From positions 10,316,764-10,380,763 of the forward strand of contig CM034536.1 of the NCBI GenBank assembly GCA_020002185.1: 64,000 nucleotides of DNA. Direction: 5' to 3'. Under the pieces are notes generated by a model. That model was not told the origin of the DNA. It searched no databases and worked only from the letters and a program-made list of their open reading frames with translations. Below, piece after piece: positions 26,701-32,700 of the stretch; the stretch's first letter is position 1; every line of letters begins with the position of its first letter. Both the position numbers and the translations under genes were made by a program. The stretch is from Paraescarpia echinospica. Its lineage: Eukaryota > Annelida > Polychaeta > Sabellida > Siboglinidae.

Positions 26701-29700
26701 TCACGAGGACTGGATACTGCGCTATATAAGAACTTAAATTTACTTCACATTTTACTTCCATTCTTTGATGCCTTTTTGAGATCTCTTAGCACTATGTCTC
26801 CTTAATTTTTATCCACCTCTTCTGTTTTCCGTGCTCTCTTTGTCTCCACACTCATTCTCTCTAGGTGTCCTGCTCATCTCGGGTCTGCTCTCAACTACCT
26901 ACAGCTTTCTTAGAGATAAACATTTAGATTTTCTTTTGAAAAAATGCAGCTGGTTTGACCACTTTCCTGGAGCAATGTCTGGGGAGTAATATCTCAGAAC
27001 CAAGTTTGATAGGGGGAATGTCTGGATCAATGTGGAAGAGAATCGTCAACGTAAAATTGATGTTTGGTGTTTTCTAGACACGGTCACTCCAAATGGCTTG
27101 AATCTTCATAAGTTTGCGGCATTGCACGAGTTTCAAAACAGACATGCGCTTGCAAAGGAGAAAATAAATGACTTCGTTCGAGGCCACTTCTATGGGTAAG
27201 TATGCACACGTTGTGTTGGAAATTTGGTACCATTCCTAGAAGTATCAGATCTTAATTTGTTTCTTATTGTTGCCACAGTATGTAATTTTTAAAAATTGTG
27301 TATGTATTCAGCAAGAAATACACCTGTGTAGTTACTGATGTTTTTCTTATTATCATTATAGTTAAAAAGCTGATAATATTTCTTTATAATTACATTACAA
27401 GTTTGACCTTGTGTGATGCGTATTATTATTATTCTCTTATTGCATCTACATGTAGTGGAAAAATTTGATAAATTTTGCAATGAAGAACAATTATTTTTAT
27501 TACGTGGTTTGTATTTAATTTAATTTTCGTCATGTCTTGACTTGTATAATCTCTTTCTCATGCTCTCTGTTATTTCTGTTCTTCCTAATACTTGGTTAAT
27601 GCGACAGTATTGTCTTGTGTAAACCCGGCTTTCATGTCTTCTATATTCTATGTAATTATTGCAATGTTGTTTGTTTTGTGTTGTTCCATGTCCCAAGATG
27701 CAGACTTTGTCTCAGATCTTTAATGTTAAGTCATTTGTTCTTTAGTACTATGTTGCACGTTCATTCTCGTGTGTTCTGTTATTGATTCTTGCACTCAGAC
27801 TGGGGCTCGTCTCTTTCAGCCACTATGACTTTGACCTTGATAAGACACTCTACTTCTTCATCGCCGGGCGCTACGAGTTCTCAAACAAAGGTGCTGACAT
27901 GTTCATTGAGTCACTAGCCAGGCTCAACCACTCTCTCAAGGTATGTCATAGTGGCCTCATGCATGCACGCACGTGTGCGCGCACACACTTGCTCACACCC
28001 ACCCTCATGTACATCCACATGCATGCATGCACACACACACGGACATGTACACACACATGCTCACATATGCAGTATGCAGTCTTTTATACCCTCAGTATTA
28101 CTTCTATGTGATTGACTAAAAAAAGCAAATTGCGGCACTGTGTTCTCAAAGTAAAACGTATAAAAGAGTATAGTAGAGGTTCAGTCAGTCATCAGTGATA
28201 TGACCATTGTAGCGTTGTGTCAGTAGATGTTTGTGTTTTCAGTCAATTAGCAGTGATGTGACAGTTGTGGCATTGTGTCAGTAGACATCTGTGTTTTCCG
28301 TCAATCAGCAGTGATGTGACTTTCGTGGCATTGTGTCAGTAGACTTCTGTGTTTTCAATCAATCAGCAGTGGTACGACAATTGTAGCATTGTGTCAACGG
28401 ATGTCTATGTTTTCAGTCAATCAGCAGTGACGTGTCGTTGTGTCAGTAGATGTCTGTGTTTTCCATCAATCAGCAGTGATGTGTCATTGTGTCAATAGGC
28501 GTCTGTGTTTTCAGTCATTTGGCAATGACGTGACAGTCGTGGTGTTGTGTCAATAGACGTCTATGTTTTCTGTCAGTCACCAGTGATGTGACAGTCGTGG
28601 CATTGTGTCAATAGATGTCTGTGTTTTCAGTCAGTCACCAGTGATGTGACAGTCGTGGCATTGTGTGAATAGATGTCTGTGTTTTCAGTCAGTCACCAGT
28701 GATGTGACAGTCGTGACATTGTGTCAATAGATGTTTGTGTTTTCAGTCAGTCACCAGTGATGTGACAGTCGTGGCATTGTGTGAATAGATGTCTGTGTTT
28801 TCAGTCAGTCACCAGTGATGTGACAGTCGTGGCATTGTGTCAATAGATGTCTGTGTTTTCAGCCAGTCGGCAGTGATGTGACAGTCGTGGCATTGTGTCA
28901 GTAGATGTATGTGTTTTTAGTCAGTCGGCAGTGACATGACAGTCGTGGCATTGTGTCAATAGATGTCTGTGTTTTCAGTCAGTCATCAGTGATGTGACAG
29001 TCGTGGCATTGTGTGAATAGATGTCTGTGTTTTTAGTCAGTCACCAGTGATGTGACAGTCGTGGCATTGTGTGAATAGATGTCTGTGTTTTCAGTCAGTC
29101 ACCAGTGATGTGACAGTCGTGGCATTGTGTCAATAGATGTCTGTGTTTTCAGCCAGTCGGCAGTGATGTGACAGTCGTGGCATTGTGTCAGTAGATGTAT
29201 GTGTTTTTAGTCAGTCGGCAGTGACATGACAGTCGTGGCATTGTGTCAATAGATGTATGTGTTTTCAGTCAGTCACCAGTGATGTGACAGTCGTGGCATT
29301 GTGTCAGTAGATGTCTGTGTTTTCAGTCAGTCACCAGTGATGTGACAGTCATGGTGTTGTGTCAGTAGGCGTCTGTGTTTTCAGTCAGTCACCAGTGACA
29401 TGACAGTCGTGGCATTGTGTCAATAGATGTATGTGTTTTCAGTCAGTCACCAATGATGTAACAGTTATGGTGTTGTGTCAATAGGCATCTGTGTTTTCAG
29501 TCAGTCACCAATGATGTGACAGTCGTGGCATTGTGTCAATAGATGTCTGTGTTTCAGCCAGTCGGCAGTGATGTGACAGACGTGGCGTTGTGTCAGTAGG
29601 CATCTGTGTTTTCAGTCAGTCACCAATGATATGACAGTCATGGCCTTGTGTCAGTAGATGTCTGTATTTTCAGCCAGTCGGCAGTGATGTGACAGACGTG

Positions 29701-32700
29701 GCGTTGTGTCAATAGGCATCTGTGTTTTCAGTCAGTCACCAATGATGTGACAGTCGTGGCATTGTGTCTGTAGATGTCTGTGTTTTCAGTCAGTTGGCAG
29801 TGACGTGACAGACGTGGCATTGTGTCAATATCTGTGTTTTCAGTCAGTCACCAATGATGTGACACTCGTGGCATTGTGTCAATAGATGTCTGTGTTTTCA
29901 GTCAGTCGGCAGTGACATGACAGACGTGGCGTTGTGTCAATATCTGTGTTTTCAGTCAGTCACCAATGATGTGACACTCGTGGCATTGTGTCAATAGATG
30001 TCTGTGTTTTCAGCCAGTCGGCAGTGACATGACAGACGTGGCGTTGTGTCAATAGGCATCTGTGTTTTCAGTCAGTCACCAATGATGTGACACTCGTGGC
30101 ATTGTGTCAATAGATGTCTGTGTTTTCAGCCAGTCGGCAGTGACGTGACAGACGTGGCGTTGTGTCAATAGGCATCTGTGTTTTCAGTCAGTCACCAATG
30201 ATGTGACAGTCGTGGCATTGTGTCAGTAGATGTCTGCGTTTTCAGTCAGTTGGCAGTGACGTGACAGACGTGGCGTTGTGTCAATAGGCATCTGTGTTTT
30301 CAGTCAGTCACCAATGATGTGACAGTCGTGGCATTGTGTCAGTAGATGTCTGTGTTTTCAGTCAGTCACCAATGATGTGACAGTCGTGGCATTGTGTCAG
30401 TAGATGTCTGTGTTTTCAGTCAGTCACCAGTGATGTGACAGTCGTGGCATTGTGTCAATAGACGTCTGTGTTTTCAGTCAGTCACCAATGATGTGACAGT
30501 CATGGCATTGTGTGAATAGATGTCTGTGTTTTCAGTCAGTCACCAGTGATGTGACACTCGTGGCATTGTGTCAATCGATGTCTGTGTTTTCAGCCAGTCA
30601 GCAGTGACATGACAGTCGTGGCGTTGTGTCAATAGGCATCTGTGTTTTTAGTCAGTCACCAATGATGTGACAGTCGTGGCATTGTGTCAATAGATGTCTG
30701 TGTTTTCAGTCAGTCACCAGTGATGTGACACTCGTGGCATTGTGTCAATAGATGTCTGTGTTTTCAGCCAGTCAGCAGTGACATGACAGTCGTGGCGTTG
30801 TGTCAATAGGCATCTGTGTTTTTAGTCAGTCACCAATGATGTGACAGTCGTGGCATTGTGTCAATAGATGTCTGTGTTTTCAGCCAGTCAGCAGTGACAT
30901 GACAGTCGTGGCGTTGTGTCAATAGGCATCTGTGTTTTCAGTCAGTCACCAGTGATGTGACAGTCGTGGTGTTGTGTCAATAGACGTCTGTGTTTTCAGT
31001 CAGTCACCAGTGATGTGACAGTTTTGGTGTTGTGTCAATAGACGTCTGTGTTTTCAGTCAGTCACCAGTGATGTGACAGTTGTGGTGTTGTGTCAATAGA
31101 CGTCTGTGTTTTCAGACAGTCACCAGTGATGTGACAGTCGTGGCATTGTGTCAATAGATGTCTGTGTTTTCAGCCAGTCAGCAGTGACATGACAGTCGTG
31201 GCGTTGTGTCAATAGGCATCTGTGTTTTCAGTCAGTCACCAATGATGTGACACTCGTGGCATTGTGTCAGTAGATGTCTGTGTTTTCAGTCAGTCACCAG
31301 TGATGTGACAGTCGTGGCATTGTGTCAATAGATGTCTGTGTTTTCAGTCAGTCACCAATGATGTGACAGTCGTGGCATTGTGTCAATAGATGTCTGTGTT
31401 TTCAGTCAGTTGGCAGTGATGTGACAATTGTGGCATTGTGTCAGTAGATGTCTGTGTTTTCAGTCAGTTGGCAGTGATGTGACAGTCGTGGCATTGTGTC
31501 AATAGATGTCTGTGTTTTCAGTCAGTTGGCAGTGATGTGACAATTGTGGCATTGTGTCAATAGATGTCTGTGTTTTCAGTCAGTTGGCAGTGATGTGACA
31601 GTCGTGGCATTGTGTCAATAGATGTCTGTGTTTTCAGTCAGTTGGCAGTGATGTGACAGTCGTGGCATTGTGTCAATAGATGTCTGTGTTTTCAGTCAGT
31701 CACCAGTGATGTGACACTCGTGGCATTGTGTCAATAGATGTCTGTGTTTTCAGTCAGTTGGCAGTGATGTGACAGTCGTGGCATTGTGTCAATAGATGTC
31801 TGTGTTTTCAGTCAGTTGGCAGTGATGTGACAGTCGTGGCATTGTGTCAATAGATGTCTGTGTTTTCAGTCAGTCACCAGTGATGTGACACTCGTGGCAT
31901 TGTGTGAATAGATGTCTGTGTTTTCAGTCAGTTGGCAGTGACGTTACAATTGTGGCGTTCCTGATCTTCCCAGCGAAGACGAACAACTTCAACATTGAGT
32001 CGTTACGAGGTCAGGCTATCGCCAAGCAACTGCGGGAGACCGTGGCCGCAGTGCTGAAGGACATCGGTCACCGGCTGTTTGAGACATCTCTCAGGTCAGT
32101 CTGAAGGACACAGTCAGCACAGGCTGTCCTGACTCTTTGAGATGTCTCTCAGGTTAGATAGACAGACAGACAGAAATTTATTCAGAGCAAATATGTACAT
32201 AATAGTATGTTTCTAATACACAAGAATTAATGGCTTAAACATTTATTGATCTATGAAGACCTGAAAAAATGCACCTGCAACAAATGTCAAACTAGTGATG
32301 ATGATGATACCATTTGTGTGCTAAAAACACTGATCATGATTAATGGGTGCTTATTAACAGTGACGTCCAATAGTTGTTCACATTTAGACGTTGATGTTTG
32401 TAATTTGTAACTGGTAATAATTTGTAACACCATGACAGATTATAAAATGATAATTCAATAACTAACCAACTAATACTGATGTTATAAATAATAGTAAATT
32501 GAACATTAAGATAAAGTAAAGGTTATGTATTACACAATGACGAAATAATCATACTAACTCTTTCCTGGGTAGACAGCCTTCTTGTTTTACACCCTGCTGT
32601 GGGCAAACAATCTGTGGGCAGACAATTTCAAGATGGCAGCCAACTGGGAACTATATTGTATGTTGCATTAAAATTAGAATATCTTGATGCACGAAATATA

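Follow-up and report, generated by a model that had tools for sequence, protein, structure and literature searches.

How is one acceptor selected at the end of an intron that holds some sixty near-copies of it? The question is raised by a 64,000-nucleotide stretch of the genome of the tubeworm Paraescarpia echinospica (assembly GCA_020002185.1, contig CM034536.1, positions 10,316,764 to 10,380,763 of the forward strand; hereafter the window), in which intron 7 of the glycogen synthase gene (GYS) is almost filled by a 58-bp minisatellite whose units repeat the intron's own acceptor and the start of exon 8. We read this array, with a probability of about three in four, as a minisatellite of the mirage type (tandem repeats laid across an intron/exon boundary) that is tolerated as a by-product of a minisatellite-rich genome and whose decoy acceptors are ignored through exon definition.

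The exons around the array encode GYS. The spliced model of 611 residues matches Pfam PF05693 over residues 40–611 with 1084.8 bits, and its closest protein is the GYS of Ridgeia piscesae (91% identity; the next relative reaches 79%). A tblastn search with the Ridgeia protein places GYS exons from position 5632 to approximately 45.6 kb of the window, with a weak match at 46426–46602. The best match for the C-terminus, obtained in the genome search, lies beyond the window at C6:10391184. In the complete genome (1,083,790,144 bp, 3111 contigs), 14 exon matches to the GYS protein follow one another on one strand of scaffold C6, between 10322395 and 10391504. They appear to constitute one gene, apparently the sole GYS gene of the animal, and no second one was detected among the best-scoring candidates of the 1.08 Gb. 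This search scores the best candidates only, and both the single gene and the confinement of the repeat unit to this locus, given below, record what was detected and do not prove absence.

Intron 7 extends from 27941 to 31927 (3987 bp), of which the array occupies 3748 bp, or 94%. The first base of exon 7 completes a split Gly codon, so that codons are read from 27821, and the exon ends in ...CTCAAG. The elements of the region are the following, in window coordinates, with a slash at the splice junction and donors scored against the consensus MAG/GTRAGT:

27820..27940, + strand: GYS coding exon 7, translation HYDFDLDKTLYFFIAGRYEFSNKGADMFIESLARLNHSLK, located by tblastn with Ridgeia GYS
27941..27946, + strand: intron 7 donor AAG/GTATGT, 8/9 of the consensus
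27947..28179, + strand: 5' part of intron 7 outside the array, including a CA-rich low-complexity stretch
28180..28184, + strand: left edge of the array, the partial unit TTCAG, without the unit's pyrimidine stretch
28185..28572, + strand: the seven left-most units, diverged (wrap-around alignment)
28573..31405, + strand: body of the array, more uniform units, some in alternating two-unit patterns, with AG at every unit end
31406..31927, + strand: the nine exon-proximal units, ending in the true acceptor TGTCTGTGTTTTCAG
31928..31959, + strand: last partial unit copy, which is the first 32 bp of exon 8 (wrap-around alignment)
31928..32094, + strand: GYS coding exon 8, 167 nt, followed by the donor CAG/GTCAGT, 8/9 of the consensus

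Tandem Repeats Finder reports one array at 28180–31932 with a period of 58, 65.2 copies and a score of 5406. A wrap-around alignment to the consensus resolves it into a left edge of 5 bp, 65 full units (28185–31927) and a last partial copy of 32 bp, and shows the last unit to be continuous with exon 8. Sixty units measure 58 bp, two 54 bp, two 49 bp and one 57 bp. Each is composed of about 26 bp of intron end and about 32 bp of exon start, and the repeat thus spans the intron/exon boundary. The units are not uniform: 47 of the 65 have distinct sequences, and the other 18 repeat another unit exactly. A 120-bp query made of the last unit and the exon start gave 61 matches in the genome, all of them within the array and only one at full length. 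No copy of the unit was detected elsewhere in the genome among the best-scoring candidates, and none was found in viral contigs.

The resemblance of the units to exon 8 is not a matter of chance, since their consensus is identical to the exon at 24 of 32 positions and neither 20,000 mononucleotide shuffles of the exon nor any ungapped alignment to the rest of the window, on either strand, exceeds 19. The initial annotation, made from the letters alone, had described the array as built from the acceptor and the first codons of the adjacent GYS exon. This description holds, the more so as the last unit runs into exon 8, and the chance-level match that had been named as grounds for abandoning it is not what the alignment gives. 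The closest units reach 29 of 32 positions. At codon 3, the reading S-V-T given earlier for the unit is its commonest form (ACC, 35 of 65), and 19 of 65 units carry GGC as in the exon. In the two 49-bp units, distances to the exon are inflated by gaps, and they were excluded from the per-column comparison with the exon (63 of 65 units used). All units are related by descent, and counts over them are not independent trials.

Upstream of the true acceptor there are 65 unit junctions, and AG is kept at 61 of them and lost at four. The 61 include the left edge, where the pyrimidine stretch is absent, and the full decoys number 60; the array of about 64 decoys first announced is real, its count slightly too high. 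The last 15 bases of the true acceptor (TGTCTGTGTTTTCAG) recur unchanged at 31 of the 65 upstream junctions and with one base altered at 16, and are thus frequent but not, as had been stated, present in every unit. Identity to the true site extends from −20 to +3 at 17 of 65 junctions, from −30 to +5 at 4 of 65 and from −40 to +5 at none. Among the 61 AG decoys, compared without gaps over −20 to +3, 17 equal the true site, 42 have two mismatches or fewer and 59 have four or fewer. Judged by local signal, many decoys would be indistinguishable from the true acceptor, and in this the initial annotation stands.

Joined to exon 7, all 61 AG decoys run into an in-frame stop: 57 of them after 13 codons, the remaining four after 10, 23, 31 and 31. 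From the true acceptor, the frame continues without a stop as far as the end of exon 8. The expectation that use of any AG decoy truncates the enzyme is confirmed by these translations, and the distance of 13 codons quoted with it applies to the great majority. Both anchors that flank the junction are present in 113 of 120 listed homologs, and in all 113 they are separated by the 12 residues that the last acceptor provides. Because every AG decoy leads to a stop and the homologs keep this spacing, a working GYS is predicted to need the last acceptor. The possibility that the units form an array of alternative or cassette exons was considered and rejected: none of the GT dinucleotides in the array scores 7 or more of 9 against the donor consensus, and the GYS frame is closed from every AG decoy.

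The choice of the last acceptor may be a consequence of what lies downstream of it. None of the 664 GT dinucleotides of the array reaches at least 7/9 of the donor consensus, against 3.1% of the 4361 elsewhere in the window. Some true GYS donors score 5–6 of 9, and weak donors within the array are thus possible. In the absence of a good donor match, the decoys could at most lengthen exon 8. The true acceptor yields the shortest exon, 167 nt, and the nearest decoys would yield 225, 283, 341 and 399 nt. The decoys would then be passed over because the last acceptor is the sole one that leads into a complete and shortest exon with a good donor, and it alone would have the body of exon 8 close downstream, including a purine-rich element:

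31973..31984, + strand: purine-rich GCGAAGACGAAC within exon 8, downstream of the copied 32 bp, a candidate exonic enhancer

A small set of enhancer motifs, applied post hoc, has four matches within the initial 60 nt of exon 8, whereas the 3743 bp of array contain none. Messenger RNAs with a lengthened exon 8 would carry an early stop and would be an expected target of nonsense-mediated decay.

As to its origin, a segment of approximately 58 bp across the junction of intron 7 and exon 8 would have been tandemly duplicated and then amplified, until 94% of the intron consisted of copies of its own acceptor and the first 10–11 codons of exon 8. In a minisatellite-rich genome, arrays may occasionally begin across an exon edge. 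Minisatellites (period 20–200, at least 4 copies) account for 3.4% of the 199 kb of N-free sequence taken from 20 evenly spaced stretches of the same scaffold, which include one array of more than 20 copies; in the window itself they cover 16.4 of 64 kb.

Several points weigh against this account. Use of the last acceptor is deduced from the reading frame and protein homology. Each unit contains about ten GT, for which some 0.3 good donor matches would be expected by chance per independent unit, and since all units go back to one sequence, the lack of donors is weak evidence and not significant. Exons of 225–399 nt are not too long for exon definition, and size alone therefore cannot exclude the nearest decoys. 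The motifs that we presume to act as enhancers were picked after the sequence had been seen. Finally, predicted local RNA structure gives the true acceptor no gain in accessibility over the decoys.

The best placed of the alternatives, which we nevertheless consider unlikely, is that the array acts as a regulatory splicing sink. Decoys would be used appreciably, perhaps depending on tissue or starvation, the resulting unstable mRNAs would set the amount of GYS, and the length of the array would tune the leak. The 60 full decoys that keep AG, the 17 of 61 that equal the true site over −20 to +3 and the 42 of 61 within two mismatches of it there are what such a device would employ, as is the early stop reached from every AG decoy. 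The acceptor columns are also less variable than the exon part: over the 60 units of 58 bp, mean heterozygosity is 0.087 in the last 15 bases and 0.049 in the AG, compared with 0.136 in the exon part. However, homogenisation can also yield a lower diversity of the intron part. No truncated GYS product with a decoy tail was present among 298 proteins (the best 120 of 7241, 58 of 58, and the best 120 of 634 matches), although such products are rarely found in databases. The array probably has no function of its own and is tolerated through exon definition.

That the array was wrongly collapsed or expanded during assembly appears very unlikely. It is highly repetitive, and a gap of 1000 N is found elsewhere in the window, at 56389–57388. 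Yet this gap is the sole run of N in the window and lies outside the array, the units are distinct in 47 of 65 cases, and scaffold C6 measures 71.4 Mb. The exact number of copies may nonetheless be off.

Recursive splicing, in which exon 7 would be joined to a decoy and the new junction would then serve as donor for a jump to the true acceptor, is scarcely credible. Its starting point does exist: ligation of the ...CTCAAG end of exon 7 to a unit that starts with TCAGT creates CAA/GTCAGT, which matches 7/9 of the donor consensus and equals several true GYS donors. This sequence is formed at 48 of the 62 AG junctions when the true one is included, and hence at 47 of 61 decoys. This donor cleaves exon 7 one base before its end. 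Re-splicing from it to the true acceptor removes that base, puts the message out of frame and runs into a stop in exon 8. The proviso in the initial annotation, that decoy use truncates the enzyme unless the product is spliced again, fails for the one route tested, by which the frame is lost. On these grounds, recursive splicing was rejected as a rescue through one further splice to the true acceptor; by this route, at least, it is predicted to harm and not to rescue. Reconstituted donors are, moreover, reported to be repressed in humans by the exon junction complex, according to the available text of PMC6224609. The array resembles recursive splice sites in that a donor-like sequence is recreated when exon 7 is joined to most units. 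It differs from them in that the recreated site lies one base off and breaks the frame toward the true acceptor, and does not act as a ratchet. The correctly spliced junction of exons 7 and 8 (27940 to 31928) itself holds CAA/GTCAGT at 7/9 and is a candidate for re-splicing that would need silencing.

Equally hard to credit is masking by RNA structure, with the decoys folded away and the true acceptor exposed: by eye, a small GTCAC/GTGAC hairpin next to the acceptor is open to the common ACC units and not to exon 8 or the TGG units, but local folding under three settings gives the true acceptor no advantage, and folding was rejected as the selector (ranks of the true site among 66: 39, 46 and 30 for a fully unpaired stretch; 48, 51 and 59 for mean unpaired probability).

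The array also bears traces of its own history. Over lags of 1 to 12 units, identity between units is highest at lag two (0.919; lag one gives 0.890). A run of three units also recurs five units away, and together these observations suggest growth by blocks. The left end is diverged, and AG has been lost at the junctions ending at 28300, 28358, 28465 and 28572, which amounts to 4 of the 8 left-most junctions against 0 of the 57 others (p = 1e-4). Selection against decoys was considered as the cause of this clustering and set aside, since the left end is generally diverged and ordinary decay suffices. The array shows concerted evolution in its interior, from which the left edge is excluded, and the right edge is not clearly diverged. 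There, the nine exon-proximal units constitute the most exon-like block of nine (mean distance 5.2 against 7.7 overall, rank 1 of 57), and two of them, units 57 and 59, encode the exon peptide SVGSDVTIVA exactly. For shorter blocks at this end the ranks are 5 of 59 and 7 of 61, for one of twelve units 2 of 54, and the gradient of exon-likeness is therefore moderate.

At the opposite end, unit 2 (the second full unit from the left, at 28243) encodes SISSDVTVVA. This peptide is identical at 10 of 10 residues to the start of exon 8 in Ridgeia GYS, from which the present start of exon 8, SVGSDVTIVA, differs at 3 of 10. The same unit is the sole one listed by tblastn with the Ridgeia protein, at an E value of 4.8 that is not significant alone. 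When random changes to the present exon were simulated (400,000 simulations each), SISSDVTVVA arose at a frequency of about 7.5e-6 with five changes and 5e-6 with six (2 events), and never with seven or eight. Multiplied by 65 units, this gives at most 5e-4, a figure that assumes uniform change, which real change is not. The simplest reading is that an older state of the exon has been kept at the left edge of the array. Among 58 matches, no exon-8 fragment reads closer to the window than that of Ridgeia.

A more far-reaching proposal, which we put forward tentatively and regard as doubtful, is that the array is a running copy of the bordering exon, with sequence exchanged between the two and the left edge a fossil of the ancestral exon. 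Either the exon has been copied out into new units, or the coding sequence of GYS may have been overwritten by the adjoining minisatellite. If true in either direction, the array may predate the split from Ridgeia, and relatives would be expected to carry it. A simple copying-out from the present exon is opposed by codon 6 of the exon (GTT), whose third base is found in 0 of 63 units; the exon has thus undergone a change that those units do not share. Against Ridgeia, 3 of 11 residues differ in the copied part of the exon, compared with 1 of 44 in the rest (Fisher p = 0.022). As a control, the 113 homologs were compared: of the 28 pairs that differ at one residue in the remainder of the exon, 12 differ at three or more of the first 12 residues. 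The first residues of exon 8 are thus naturally variable, the Fisher difference is no evidence for fast change, and the idea that the copied codons evolve unusually fast found no support.

Other repeats accompany the gene. The first GYS intron holds a 48-bp minisatellite of about 79 copies at 8297–12080, which reads (HIDERPFKCTIPYSVT)n on the + strand in an open reading frame of 570 aa; the − strand is also open, over 1308 aa. Pfam zf-H2C2_2 is among the repeat-driven hits of this frame, and its peptide resembles a linker motif of zinc fingers. CTGT/CCGT-rich microsatellites at 35282–35777 stop 26 bp short of the GYS exon that starts at 35804, and possibly supply pyrimidine-rich sequence near its acceptor. 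A degenerate second copy of the GYS exon at 45510–45612 is located shortly downstream of it, at 45886–45950 (88% over 65 bp). Between 48521 and 62091, minisatellite blocks recur with units of 85 bp (for instance at 48521, 50468 and 57389), 53 bp (for instance at 49657, 52938 and 59574) and also 35 bp, an arrangement that suggests a larger segmental duplication around the gap of 1000 N.

For the study of splicing, intron 7 is a natural experiment on the choice among near-identical splice sites. A single natural intron with 61 AG decoys, 17 of them equal to the true acceptor over −20 to +3 and 42 within two mismatches of it over these 23 bases, allows splice-site strength to be separated from position and exon context, and RNA sequencing of the tubeworm could give the error rate of the spliceosome directly, decoy by decoy. 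Earlier states of a coding exon may be preserved in the array as well, and it bears on the question of whether minisatellites at exon edges trap or alter coding sequence, or seed introns.

The initial annotation named no precedent for the array, and its kind is in fact known. Mirages are described in amphioxus, in Adh3, in the globins BflGb6 and BflGb9, in troponin C and in PGBD5 (available text of PMC3087553 and PMC3902484). There, many but not all copies keep AG or GT, the boundaries of the clusters escape homogenisation and regular splicing is reported to be undisturbed; the unit of the Adh3 mirage measures 10–72 bp. The GYS array likewise spans an intron/exon boundary, keeps AG in many units and has a left edge outside homogenisation. 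Unlike the amphioxus cases, it is located in an annelid GYS gene and counts 65 units, compared with 6 and 3 in two haplotypes of BflGb6 (PMC3087553, as far as its text was available). Its occupation of 94% of the intron, the early closure of the frame from every AG decoy and the older-looking peptide at the left edge are further features to be set against them.

A mirror image is provided by intron 7 of human factor VII (F7), where, in the available part of PMC6627357, normal splicing uses only the most upstream of the repeated 5' sites, the one in the first of the 37-bp repeats. In both genes, the units of a minisatellite repeat the splice site of the adjacent exon. Factor VII differs in gene, lineage and polarity, since its repeated sites are 5' sites of which the first copy is used, whereas those of GYS are 3' sites of which the last copy is needed. 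Together with the amphioxus mirages, it is a reported precedent for duplicated splice sites that do not disturb splicing, and by analogy a rule common to factor VII and the GYS array would be that the winning copy is the one attached to the complete exon.

Other systems are more distant. Internal tandem repeats in human segmental duplications involve minisatellite expansion within genes and the activation of cryptic splice sites; they lengthen exons and introns or form new introns, whereas the GYS repeat stays intronic (PMC2812944, available text). In earthworm metallothionein genes, which are also annelid genes with large intronic minisatellites, these reside in the first intron, and duplications of the fourth exon that are absent from the transcript are also mentioned; units that span a boundary are not described in the available part of that source (PMC12783039). 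Arrays of this boundary-spanning form are equally not described in the accessible portions of PMC2812944, PMC3045353 and PMC3862624. We found no annelid or tubeworm mirage in the open-licence literature, which does not show absence from print. Compared with these systems, the GYS array is a large case of the known mirage kind, ordinary in kind and exceptional in degree among the cases compared. What seems to be new are the donor-like junctions that 47 of its 61 decoys would create, with a re-splice that shifts the frame, and the peptide SISSDVTVVA kept in its second full unit.

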